From NCBI GenBank assembly GCA_019244235.1, contig JAFASY010000011.1, positions 1 to 51,310 on the forward strand: 51,310 bases of DNA, written 5' to 3'. The position numbers were made by a program, and so were the translations under genes. Every line of letters starts with the position of its first letter. The first letter of the stretch is position 1. The notes beneath the pieces are model-generated. The model was not told where the DNA came from and did no database searches. It worked only from the letters and a program-made list of their open reading frames with translations. Of the stretch, positions 23,271 to 32,259 are shown in pieces. Source of the DNA: Chroococcidiopsidaceae cyanobacterium CP_BM_ER_R8_30 (GTDB taxonomy: Bacteria; Cyanobacteriota; Cyanobacteriia; Cyanobacteriales; Chroococcidiopsidaceae).

Positions 23271-23723
23271 ATGACTAATATAGTAGGCGGTGTTATTCCC
23301 CCTCAGCCACCAATTGATCCCCAGTCTAACGTTCACGAACTCAAATCTCGTCTTGAATGGGGTGAACCAGCTTTTACTATTCTTGATGTGCGTGATCGCA
23401 ATGCTTATAATGATGGCCACATTATGGGAGCATTGCCAATGCCCATAGATGAACTGGTAGATCGGGCAAAATCTAGTCTTGAATCAAGCCGAGACATCTA
23501 CGTTCACGGTGAAACTGATGAGGAAACCTCTGAAGCTGCTCAGAGACTTCGTGGTGCCGGATTTGTGCATGTATCTGAGCTGAAAGGTGGGCTCCCTGCC
23601 TGGAAGGCAATCGGTGGTCCTACAGAAGGTATTGTTGAATCAAGAACTCCGGCAGGCGCTGATGACTATAACGTTGCAGCCCGCCTGCAGAACTTCTCTG
23701 AGACTCAGAAAAAACAGCCATAG
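23271..23723 (+). CDS. rhodanese-like domain protein, catalytic Cys replaced by His
   Basis: 150-aa single rhodanese domain: LEWGEPAFTILDVRDRNAYNDGHIMGALPMP, then a loop DIYVHGETDEETSEAAQRL where an active sulfurtransferase would have a Cys (YCxxGxRS). His takes that place, so sulfur transfer is not expected; a binding or regulatory role is more likely. The C-terminal 35 residues are polar and free. ATG start with AGAGGG 10 bp upstream. A paralogue follows 146 bp downstream beyond a strong terminator. Confidence 0.85.
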   Translation: MTNIVGGVIPPQPPIDPQSNVHELKSRLEWGEPAFTILDVRDRNAYNDGHIMGALPMPIDELVDRAKSSLESSRDIYVHGETDEETSEAAQRLRGAGFVHVSELKGGLPAWKAIGGPTEGIVESRTPAGADDYNVAARLQNFSETQKKQP

Positions 23724-23869: not shown

Positions 23870-24256
23870 TTGCAACTCATGTATAAATTTTTAGGTATTA
23901 TCCCAACTCCACCACCTCTAAAGGCAAATTCATTAGTCTATGACCTAAAAGCGCGTCTTGACTGGGGAGATCCAGCCTTGACGATTGTTGACGTACGAGA
24001 TCGCAGTGAGTTTGAATTCAGCCATATTCTAGGTGCGATTCCCTTATCAATGGACGAGTTGGTTCCACGAGCCTTGTGTAACCTTGAGGTGACTCGTGAC
24101 ATTTATGTTTATGGTGAAACTGACGAAGAGACAGCAGAGGCGGCAGCTAAGCTACGAACCGCTGGATATCAAAATGTCTCAGAACTGAGAGGCGGCGTTG
24201 CTGCATGGCAAGCCGTTGGTTACCCAGTTGAGTCAAGAGTAGGGTGTAGGGTGTAG
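23870..24256 (+). CDS. rhodanese-like domain protein, tandem paralogue, Cys replaced by Tyr
   Basis: 128 aa, closely related to the gene before it (LDWGDPALTIVDVRDRSEFEFSHILGAIPLSMDEL). The catalytic-loop position is Tyr in IYVYGETDEETAEA, so again no catalytic Cys. Start is uncertain: a TTG at 23870 has AAAGGA at a good 10-bp distance, while the ATG at 23879 is farther. The last residues (RVGCRV) come from a TAGGGTGTAGGGTGTAGGGG tandem run at 24240-24258, so the original C-terminus seems to have been replaced when repeat DNA moved in. Tandem gene duplication is evident. Confidence 0.8.
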   Translation: MQLMYKFLGIIPTPPPLKANSLVYDLKARLDWGDPALTIVDVRDRSEFEFSHILGAIPLSMDELVPRALCNLEVTRDIYVYGETDEETAEAAAKLRTAGYQNVSELRGGVAAWQAVGYPVESRVGCRV

Positions 24257-24258: not shown

Positions 24259-24460
24259 GAGCCAGTCGCGTGCGGAGGTTCCGACGGACAGTTCGCTCAA
24301 GTCGGGAGACCCGCCCATGCGACTGTCCTCCTCCGTTGAGAAGGGAGCGCGTTGCGGAGCCAGTCGCGCCTTGCGGGGTCCCCCGGCGTTAAGCGTTCTG
24401 GCGTTGGGGTCCCCCCCGTTGTAGCGACTCCCGTCGAACTGGCGTTGTGGGGCGTAGTTC
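24259..24460. repeat. GC-rich palindromic repeat cluster (family also present inside coaT)
   Basis: A 200-bp GC-rich block without a credible gene, full of short palindromes (GTCGGGAGACCCGCC, GGGGTCCCCC). Read on the minus strand, CGCCAGAACGCTTAACGCC is nearly identical to TGCCAGAACGCTTAATGCC at 31104 inside coaT, and GGCGGGTCTCCCG is shared too, so the two loci carry copies of one family in opposite orientation. It fills the gap between the rhodanese-like gene and RNase D. Confidence 0.7.
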
Positions 24461-28698: not shown

Positions 28699-29832
28699 TT
28701 AATTCGTGAATCTATCTGACGCAAAATTAAGATAACAGTGACAATCTGGCTTTTCCAACAATGACGCAACTAGGGCATTGAGAGCGACTGCTGCTAACAG
28801 GCCACCTCCTAAAGTCCCCTCAATTGTGATGTAGGGAATACCTGATCGCATCAATTGCCGCTTAGCGGCAGGAGCATGGCTAAATCCTATGGGCATCCCG
28901 ATAACAAGAGCAGGTTGAATCTGTCCCTGTTCAATTGCTACACAAGCTGACATCAGTACTGATGGAGAATAGCCGATAACGAGTATTGATTGATCTGCAA
29001 CTTGCTGGAGACGCTCCGAAAACGAGTGATGCTGCCAAAATGCCTGTTCAGCTTCGTCTGCATTGGTAATATGGGGATCGTTAATCAGGGTTTCCACCTG
29101 ACAACCTGGCAAATGGGCTAGTCGAGTTTGGTCTAGGGCTGCAACGACCACAGAGATATCTCCCACAATCTGGCACCCGGCGCTGAGGCTCTGACGAGCT
29201 AGCGCGATCGCTTCCGGGCTCATTCGCAAAAAATGACACAGACTCACATCTCCACAAGCCAGTACTAATTTGGCAATTAAGTCCACTTCAATTTCAGAGC
29301 GGTTAGAAAGATCGGGCAAGAGTTGCTGCAACGATTCCTGAAATTTTTCCGGATGGTTAGAGACTGAAGCGTCTAAACCATGCCAAAGTTGTTCGAGTTC
29401 TCCCAATCCACTCTGGGTTTCCACTTCAAATAATCTTAGCTGAGCCAGTGCTTCAGCCTGAAGCAGTTGGCAGTGGCGATCACGCCCCAGCAAACTTTCT
29501 AAAGCCGATGCTGTTTGTCGTAGATGGGCGAGCTGTTGAACTAAAGACCGATATTGTTGCTGTAGCTGAGCTGTTAGAGTTTGAGCTGCATCTTCTTGTG
29601 GGTTGACTTCCAGGATTTTTTGCACATGAGCTAACTGAAATCCCTGCTGCTTAAGAGCCACAATCCGCTTTAATCGTTGGACATCACTCTCGCTATATAG
29701 TCGGTAGTTGCTAGATGAGCGCTGTGCCGGGGGCATTAAGCCTAACTGATGGTAATGCCGCACCATTCTTGGGGTGATACCACCGCCAACTGCCTCGGTC
29801 AGTTCTTTAATCGTTAAGTGTTGTTCGCTCAT
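28699..29832 (-). CDS. coaR: CoaR-type cobalt-sensing MerR regulator fused to a precorrin isomerase domain
   Basis: 377 aa from the ATG at 29832 (a GTG at 29853 is the alternative). Residues 1-70 are a MerR winged helix (TIKELTEAVGGGITPRMVRHYHQLGLMPP). A coiled-coil stretch follows. From about residue 175 comes a CbiC/CobH precorrin-8X methylmutase domain (VGDISVVVAALD, VIGMPIGFSHAPAAKRQLM). The C-terminus has the Cys-His-Cys motif (DCHCYLNF) shown in Synechocystis CoaR to be needed for Co response. It diverges from the P-type ATPase coaT, its known target, and a MerR-type operator lies between them. Confidence 0.93.
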   Translation of the reverse strand: MSEQHLTIKELTEAVGGGITPRMVRHYHQLGLMPPAQRSSSNYRLYSESDVQRLKRIVALKQQGFQLAHVQKILEVNPQEDAAQTLTAQLQQQYRSLVQQLAHLRQTASALESLLGRDRHCQLLQAEALAQLRLFEVETQSGLGELEQLWHGLDASVSNHPEKFQESLQQLLPDLSNRSEIEVDLIAKLVLACGDVSLCHFLRMSPEAIALARQSLSAGCQIVGDISVVVAALDQTRLAHLPGCQVETLINDPHITNADEAEQAFWQHHSFSERLQQVADQSILVIGYSPSVLMSACVAIEQGQIQPALVIGMPIGFSHAPAAKRQLMRSGIPYITIEGTLGGGLLAAVALNALVASLLEKPDCHCYLNFASDRFTN

Positions 29833-29854
29833 TTGCTGATTGTGAGTTATCACC

Positions 29855-29923: not shown

Positions 29924-31987
29924 ATGACTAACCGTTCGCTCTTAACTCCCCACTTGACGCAACTGCTCAAGGACAATCCTGAACTCACTGCAGCACTCAC
30001 CTGCGGGTTACTGGTGTTGCTGGGTTGGTCAGTCCTGCATACAGGCTGGATTGGCTTAAGTTTACTCATCCTTTGTGCCGCCTACGTTATTGGGGGATAT
30101 GAAAGCGCTCGTGAAGGTTTAACAACCTTGTTTCGAGAAAAACAACTGGATGTAGACCTGTTAATGATTGTGGCTGCTCTGGGTTCAGCTAGTTTAGGGC
30201 TGTGGCGACGGGAATACTATCTGATTGTAGATGGAGCCTTACTGATTCTCATCTTTGCCTTTAGTGGAGCGCTAGAAAGCTACGCTATGCAACGTACTGA
30301 ACGAGGCATTCGCAGTTTGATGAGTCTGACTTCAGATACGGCGCGGGTATTCCAGCATGGACAGGAGCAATTTATTCCAATTGCTCAGTTGCAAATCGGT
30401 ACTCAAGTCATCGTCAAGCCAGGAGAACTGATACCTACAGATGGATTGATTACTGAAGGTTACAGTACCCTGAATGAAGCTCCGATTACAGGGGAATCGA
30501 TGCCAGTTGAGAAAACGGTAGGTAGTGAAGTCTTTGCTGGCACAATTAATGGCAATGGGGCGTTGAGGCTAAAGGTTCACAAATCACCAGAAAGTAGCCT
30601 GATTCAGCGGGTAATTCAGCTCGTGGAGCAGGCACAGAATGAAGCCCCTCCCTCTCAACAGTTTATTGAACGATTTGAGCGGAGCTATGCTTGGGTTGTT
30701 GTAGGAGTTGGGCTCTTGATAGCCTTCCTGCCTCCTTTTATCTGGGGTTGGAGTTGGGAAACTACGATTTATCGAGCGCTGATATTTTTAGTGGTGGCTT
30801 CTCCCTGTGCCTTAATGGCATCGATTATGCCTACACTGCTCTCAGGCATTACCAACGGCACTCGCCAGGGCATTTTGTTTAAGAATGGTGCTCAGTTAGA
30901 GACAATTGGTCGAGTGCGAGCGATCGCTTTTGACAAAACAGGTACCCTAACCACAGGACAGCCTCAAGTTGTGAAAACTTTTGCTGCAACCGGACAATCA
31001 GAAAGTCTTGTTCTTCAAATGGCTGCTGCTTTGGAAGTCTTCTCAGAACATCCAATTGGAAGAGCGATCGCCCAAGCAGCACAACAACAATTGCAATGGG
31101 ATGCCAGAACGCTTAATGCCGGGAAACCCGGAACGCCAGTTGACTCGCGAGCCAGCACTGCAGGCGGGTCTCCCGCCGTAGGTGACTGGCGTCCGAGGGA
31201 TCCGGCTCTGGTCAGTGGCTCCTCTGGCAACTGGTTCGCAGAGGCGATAGAAGTTCATGCCCAGCCAGGGCAAGGAATTGCCGGGACTATTGATGGTCAG
31301 CAGGTTTTAGTCGGTAAAGCCGCATTTGTCTCCCAACAAATTTCTAGCCTTCCTGCTAACTTAATGAACTTGAGCAATGCTCTAGAAGATGAGGGGAAGA
31401 CAGTTGTGTGGGTGGCTCAAGCTGGTCAAGTTTTAGGAATCATTGCTGTTGCCGATACTGTGCGACCAGCAGCAGCTTCAATGGTAGCTCAGCTGAAACG
31501 ATTGGGACTAGAGCAGATTGTGATGTTAACAGGAGATAACGAGAGAGCAGCAAATAGCGTTGCCAGAGAAATTGGTGTAGACAAAGTTTATGCCGAGCTG
31601 CTACCGGAAGATAAGTTAAAGGTGATTCGCCAACTCCAGCAGCAGTACTGCACAGTGGCGATGGTAGGAGATGGGATTAACGATGCTCCTGCCCTAGTCC
31701 AGGCATCAGTAGGGATTGCGATGGGAGCAGCGGGTAGTGATGTGGCATTGGAGACAGCAGATATCGTTTTGATGGCAGACCGTTTAGAAAAACTGGTCTA
31801 TGCCATTCGCTTAGGTCGCCGTTCTCAGGTGATTGTGAAACAAAATATTGCGTTTGCTCTCAGCTTTATTATTCTGTTATTGATTGCCAATTTTACTGGC
31901 TACATTAACATTCCCTTGGGTGTCATTGGGCATGAAGGGTCTACAGTACTCGTGACGCTCAGTGGTTTACGACTACTGAGAAGTTGA
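29924..31987 (+). CDS. coaT: CoaT-type P1B-4 cobalt (heavy-metal) exporting ATPase
   Basis: 687 aa with no N-terminal metal-binding HMA domain. Present are TGES (residue ~191), the ion site SPC in VVASPCALMAS (~291), the phosphorylated Asp in DKTGTLTTG (~337), the hinge GDGINDAP (~582) and HEGSTVLV in the last helix; SPC plus HEGxT define the P1B-4 class. Residues about 394-440, in the nucleotide-binding domain, are an insert rich in Gly, Pro, Arg and Ser, encoded by GC-rich palindromic repeat DNA in frame. Family proteins are about 640 aa, so the excess length fits. Divergent from coaR. Confidence 0.92.
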   Translation: MTNRSLLTPHLTQLLKDNPELTAALTCGLLVLLGWSVLHTGWIGLSLLILCAAYVIGGYESAREGLTTLFREKQLDVDLLMIVAALGSASLGLWRREYYLIVDGALLILIFAFSGALESYAMQRTERGIRSLMSLTSDTARVFQHGQEQFIPIAQLQIGTQVIVKPGELIPTDGLITEGYSTLNEAPITGESMPVEKTVGSEVFAGTINGNGALRLKVHKSPESSLIQRVIQLVEQAQNEAPPSQQFIERFERSYAWVVVGVGLLIAFLPPFIWGWSWETTIYRALIFLVVASPCALMASIMPTLLSGITNGTRQGILFKNGAQLETIGRVRAIAFDKTGTLTTGQPQVVKTFAATGQSESLVLQMAAALEVFSEHPIGRAIAQAAQQQLQWDARTLNAGKPGTPVDSRASTAGGSPAVGDWRPRDPALVSGSSGNWFAEAIEVHAQPGQGIAGTIDGQQVLVGKAAFVSQQISSLPANLMNLSNALEDEGKTVVWVAQAGQVLGIIAVADTVRPAAASMVAQLKRLGLEQIVMLTGDNERAANSVAREIGVDKVYAELLPEDKLKVIRQLQQQYCTVAMVGDGINDAPALVQASVGIAMGAAGSDVALETADIVLMADRLEKLVYAIRLGRRSQVIVKQNIAFALSFIILLLIANFTGYINIPLGVIGHEGSTVLVTLSGLRLLRS
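31103..31240 (+). repeat. palindromic repeat inserted in frame inside coaT
   Basis: Nested inverted repeats: GCCGGGAAACCCGGAACG, GCGGGTCTCCCGCC, and GCCAGT / ACTGGC arms. It is translated without a stop as about 46 residues between the conserved IAQAAQQQLQW and IEVHAQPGQGI segments. The unit matches the minus strand of the block at 24259-24460. It behaves like Rickettsia-type palindromic elements that insert into genes while preserving frame. Confidence 0.75.
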
Positions 31988-31992
31988 AACTA

Positions 31993-32259
31993 CTAGGGTT
32001 CTTCCCTGAACCACATCGCAATTTGTGTTTTGAAATGGGACTGCTTCTTTAGCCTGGGTGGAAAAGAGTCCATGTACAGATAAAAAACAGGAGTGATATA
32101 CAGGGTTAATAACAGAGAAAATAGTAGTCCGCCAACTACTGCTATACCCAGGGGACGGCGGACTTCAGAACTAGCACCCATCACAATCGCGATTGGCAAG
32201 GTCGCCATTATGGCAGCTATCGTCATCATCATAATTGGACGGAACCGAACCAAGCAGGC
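31993..32259 (-). pseudogene. RND (AcrB/MdtC-type) efflux pump, C-terminal remnant
   Basis: The frame reads ACLVRFRPIMMMTIAAIMATLP, then RRPLGIAVVGGLLFSLLLTLY and PVFYLYMDSF: the last 85-90 residues of a HAE-1 RND pump of about 1,040 residues. A TAA lies directly before the Ala codon, where normal proteins have Glu, and nothing upstream resembles the pump. It is thus a deletion remnant. It lies just after coaT and converges on it. Confidence 0.8.

Follow-up and report, generated by a model that had tools for sequence, protein, structure and literature searches.

How does a gene for a cobalt-type metal pump come to be read through 138 nt of GC-rich, palindromic DNA, and what is that DNA? The question is raised by a stretch of 51,310 nt (the window) on contig JAFASY010000011.1 of Chroococcidiopsidaceae cyanobacterium CP_BM_ER_R8_30, the source genome of this study, in which an initial annotation had placed a stop-free, in-frame repeat of about 138 bp, adding about 46 residues, at 31103-31240 within coaT. 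Our boundaries lie 3 nt from these coordinates, and the in-frame reading holds:

29924..31987, plus strand: coaT, P1B-type (cobalt-type) ATPase, 687 residues
31100..31237, plus strand: coaT insert, 138 nt (46 codons, residues 393-438)

The open reading frame at 29924-31987 contains no stop across the insert, whose GC content is 64.5% as compared to 47.4% for the remainder of coaT. In an alignment with 35 CoaT relatives, 29 of which came from a whole-genome search (same family or order) and 6 from named genomes, the 46 extra residues (DARTLNAG...SGNWF) fall between LQW and AEAIEVH; none of the 35 shares them, and the earlier reading of the segment as an insertion thus withstood the check for orthologues bearing the same residues. 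They are likewise absent from solved ATPases, and comparison with one of these (7qbz) leaves a gap between residues 388 and 439. The site lies in the nucleotide-binding domain, between the SEHPIG and GQGI motifs, in agreement with its previous assignment to the ATP-binding domain. In the AlphaFold model, residues 401-435 have pLDDT values of ~30-42, with a confident helix (377-399) before them and a confident strand (441-447) after. The 46 residues are therein predicted to form a disordered loop, as had been proposed for the product of the repeat.

The SPC, HEGST, DKTGTLT and GDGINDAP motifs of CoaT are all intact, outside the insert the protein is 56-76% identical to its relatives, and the pump probably still works with the additional 46 residues, which are presumably translated. 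Misassembly is an unlikely source of the insert because both flanks belong to one gene and to one frame. We regard it as very improbable that coaT is a decaying pseudogene read in frame by chance: shuffling a GC-rich 46-mer still leaves a given frame open ~71% of the time, but the net length of the insert is a multiple of three, the invariant motifs and the level of identity to relatives are those given above, and the in-frame pattern is seen again in genes whose roles are normally essential or central. Flanking coaT, and divergent from it, is a minus-strand gene (28699-29853) in which a MerR-type regulator is fused to a precorrin-8X methylmutase-like domain, which we take to be the known CoaR arrangement. 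Directly 3' of coaT, an 88-residue stop-bounded stretch on the minus strand (31993-32259; MMMTIAAIMATLPIAIVMGASSEVRRPLGIAVVGGLL...) resembles, by eye, what remains of the C-terminus of an RND efflux pump.

The insert had been described as one repeat. Instead, it resolves without remainder into three hairpin units, nested within one another, of 48, 46 and 44 nt, lengths that sum to a multiple of three, with the innermost unit reversed:

31100..31131, plus strand: outer unit, left part, 32 nt, from comparison of the 48-nt unit with locus L098
31132..31148, plus strand: middle unit, left part, 17 nt, from comparison of the 46-nt unit with locus L099 (covariance model match at 31133-31222)
31149..31192, minus strand: inner unit, 44 nt, identical to a copy on contig C246
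31193..31221, plus strand: middle unit, right part, 29 nt, from the split of the insert into units
31222..31237, plus strand: outer unit, right part, 16 nt, from the split of the insert into units

The outer unit is identical to L098 at 43 of 48 positions and the inner unit to L105 at all 44, and the middle unit has diverged (36/46 identical to L099); all three matches are far above shuffled controls. We consider it quite probable that the extra DNA in coaT represents three nested copies of a mobile 45-nt hairpin, members of a frame-preserving family that is kept in tolerant protein loops.

The canonical unit of this family is a 45-nt hairpin (15 codons) that begins with ACGCCAG and ends with CTGGCTC. 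Aligned units from genome copies contain four hairpin pairs with changes on both sides, and the predicted folds of single consensus units are much more stable than those of shuffles (DNA z = -3.9 and -3.1); the whole nested coaT insert folds less distinctly (RNA z = -1.9). The insert DNA has matches elsewhere in the genome at E = 4.6e-27 and 2.8e-18, the latter identical over 48 of 48 nt on another contig. A search for further genomic copies, whose absence would have counted against the initial annotation, used a covariance model (R1) trained on copies from the source genome and returned at least 51 matches there at E values of 0.01 or below; the count is a minimum, the genome being a draft and 150 of 1702 candidates having been scored. 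The annotation thus withstood this check as well. Since units of 44, 46, 47 and 48 nt are also common in the source genome, the 45-nt length holds most clearly in relatives. The existence of these copies refutes the suggestion that the extra residues are an ordinary lineage-specific loop encoded by normal GC-rich sequence, to which we assign next to no probability. Loop length does vary among CoaT relatives, as such a loop might, but this variation itself consists in part of repeats, the same DNA recurs at many unrelated places, the 48-nt match among them, and the insert resolves into three units of a family.

Copies also occur between genes in the window, within a larger mosaic of units at ~24259-24460:

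24284..24331, plus strand: intergenic unit of the hairpin family
24356..24404, minus strand: intergenic unit of the hairpin family

This mosaic had been annotated as non-coding DNA in the opposite orientation to the coaT repeat; it does lie between open reading frames, and both orientations are present. Two adjacent rhodanese-like open reading frames (23271-23723 and 23870-24256) resemble a tandem duplication, the second of which ends at this repeat cluster.

Beyond the source genome, the family has a wide distribution among related and heterocystous cyanobacteria: a survey of 60 relatives gave matches in 14 of the 44 genera represented, and six further genomes, including those of Nostoc parmelioides, Trichormus and Anabaena, have 15 to 110 matches each. 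Matches on plasmids are all cyanobacterial and several lie under annotated coding sequences, as do copies on a plasmid of Gloeocapsa PCC 7428. No match to Rfam was found around the coaT insert. Carriage by phages was considered and dropped, there being no match to the unit in phages.

Residence within proteins is a recurrent property of the family. Open reading frames over GC-rich repeats may be spurious, and therefore only those with recognised domains were counted as genes; by this measure, about one third of 50 examined units in the source genome lie in frame in long open reading frames encoding a recognised protein. In CoaT, PEP carboxylase, CobN and RecJ of the source genome, homology extends on both sides of the insert, and in a CBS-CCA protein the unit sits between domains. 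In-frame copies in relatives are found in EgtB, a GH57/DUF3536 protein, Lnt, a SelD fusion, TrpE/PabB, ModBC, an NRPS, a PKS and an AMP-ligase/acyl-CoA dehydrogenase; TilS is included as an in-frame host on the basis of an empty site, described below. A non-exhaustive search revealed no clear case of a gene disrupted by a copy. One candidate frame-broken gene (L154) resolved into a pair of neighbouring genes that share their domains and are separated by the repeat. Together with the 35 orthologues that lack the residues and the predicted disorder of the loop, these many copies in conserved genes bear out the earlier proposal that the family tolerates insertion into proteins. An IS6-type transposase (L153:897-1658) and a TnpB-type protein (L016:654-1757) also carry the repeat in frame.

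The initial annotation suggested that this tolerance might reflect a repeat open in one frame, a view that did not survive: the unit consensus is free of stops in five of six frames. Genic copies use all six frames (7, 5 and 9 on the unit's own strand and 5, 1 and 6 on the other), and the stop-containing frame is used once, at a C-terminus. With 45 nt amounting to 15 codons and stops confined to one of the six frames, a unit inserted into a gene would in most cases merely add a short peptide, rich in Gly, Pro, Arg and Ser. Units with at least five open frames make up 98% of those from relatives versus 45% of shuffles, and 64% versus 46% in the source genome, an excess that does not prove that open frames were selected, because the units share ancestry and those from relatives are the top of a ranked list. 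That selection shaped both the 45-nt length and the openness of five frames, making the hairpin a gene-adapted element, is a doubtful proposition; were it true, the element would be a mobile peptide inserter, spreading through coding DNA at almost no cost.

Evidence of recent insertion comes from two empty sites in three genomes of one genus, which are 94-95% identical over the tilS region. In G012 tilS has no insert, whereas in G001 and G007 it is longer by exactly 45 nt; the added unit lies within a heptamer repeat, (GGGAGTC)n, that is itself translated, and preserves the frame, yielding proteins of 398 versus 383 residues (15 codons). In lnt, exactly 90 extra nt, a unit nested within a unit, are present in frame (30 codons) in G001 and absent from G007 and G012. 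Neither site, both of which are repetitive, has a clear target duplication of the kind associated with MITEs. At several other sites in relatives, joining the flanks after removal of one unit produces a 7-nt period, with scores of 0.53-0.67 that are distinctive at no period other than 7; no site passed a strict test (period-7 identity of at least 0.7), and none stood out as a heptamer site in the source genome.

A model in which new hairpin copies are spliced cleanly into DNA, presumably by a dedicated machinery and often into heptamer tandem repeats or older copies, would account for such sites. Selection would then retain the insertions that land in tolerant loops or linkers, and in CoaT the 46 residues would constitute a disordered loop of the nucleotide-binding domain that survives because the loop tolerates it. 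Alternatively, the repeat may owe its spread to gene conversion or recombination among repeats already present, whether heptamers or older copies. Consistent with such exchange, copies lie within heptamer repeats and within one another, no transposase was found near copies, and target duplications are not evident. However, the outer unit of CoaT and several genic copies are located outside recognisable repeats, and the fixed ends, together with an insert of exactly 45 nt at tilS, point to a defined unit; we judge this route unlikely, if the most plausible of the alternatives. A Y1/RAYT transposase was considered as the mover of the hairpin and rejected, since none of the 11 such genes (PF01797) of the source genome has a unit in the examined loci around it.

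The loop of CoaT has been occupied in other lineages. Other repeat-like residues are found at or near it in relatives: in G013, a different unit of the hairpin family, 34/35 identical to a genomic unit (shuffles score much lower), is read in the same loop in a different frame; CACAGAG-type sequence is visible by eye at the loop in G003, G009 and G014; and two Chroococcidiopsis copies of CoaT contain, also by eye, translated tandem repeats one loop downstream. The independent unit in G013 might be taken to indicate that inserted peptides are kept because they are useful, for instance in regulating CoaT. Different frames give rise to unrelated peptides in different proteins, however, the CoaT loop is predicted to be disordered, and repeats of other kinds occupy it in other relatives, all of which leaves usefulness a slender prospect.

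In the literature covered, from which subscription papers were largely absent, we found no description of the hairpin family, and it was compared with known repeats. The STRRs of cyanobacteria are heptamer tandem repeats into which the unit inserts, and tilS and some CoaT proteins contain such heptamers in translated form; as tandem 7-nt units without a hairpin, they are not the element itself. The SDR1-8 repeats of Nostoc punctiforme, which Elhai et al. are said to have described in 2008, are reportedly very small hairpins of 21-27 nt, recently mobile, that sit in heptamer tandem repeats, in minitransposons and in copies of themselves. By description, the unit is likewise tiny, found in heptamer repeats (tilS, several relatives) and nested in itself (coaT, lnt), but its 45-nt canonical length lies outside the SDR definition and the comparison is by description alone, and it is therefore not filed as an SDR. 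We know of no frequent in-frame residence in proteins for SDRs.

Such residence characterizes the Rickettsia palindromic elements (Ogata et al.), which are known from Rickettsia, measure ~100-150 bp and lie in frame in unrelated genes, where they are translated as extra segments (PMC10969869, PMC3733652). The hairpin unit is similarly in frame in many unrelated genes; it differs in being a 45-nt unit that grows by nesting in free-living cyanobacteria, and the resemblance is best regarded as an analogy in behaviour, not as demonstrated kinship. REP elements, short palindromes with GTAG or CGTC tags of which cyanobacterial families are known (Di Nocera et al. 2013, PMC3733652), sometimes lie within open reading frames and encode 20-82 residues (PMC3733652). 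In contrast, the hairpin consensus, which ends in ACGCCAG and CTGGCTC, has no GTAG or CGTC foot tag, and no RAYT gene is linked to it in the source genome. In its behaviour the unit joins the features of Nostoc SDRs to the in-frame tolerance of the Rickettsia elements.

If this interpretation is correct, palindromic repeats invade proteins in frame in free-living cyanobacteria as well, and not in Rickettsia alone. Recent events could be placed on a tree, related strains differing by 15 codons in tilS and by 30 in lnt, and both the fate of newly inserted peptides and the movement of the smallest mobile DNAs would become open to direct experiment. It also follows, as a caution, that many annotated cyanobacterial proteins would contain repeat-derived segments.

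Some copies share sequence beyond the unit itself. Three genic copies in the source genome (L089, L097 and L108, ~1501) have common flanks, in the order AAAGGGGACC, unit, CGAGTTCCC, as if the unit had travelled as part of a larger composite or had entered a second small repeat. In G001, near-identical units (L181, L182 and L183, ~2000-2150) lie inside a longer, minitransposon-like repeated element with CCCCCCTTTTTAAGGGG-type sequence.
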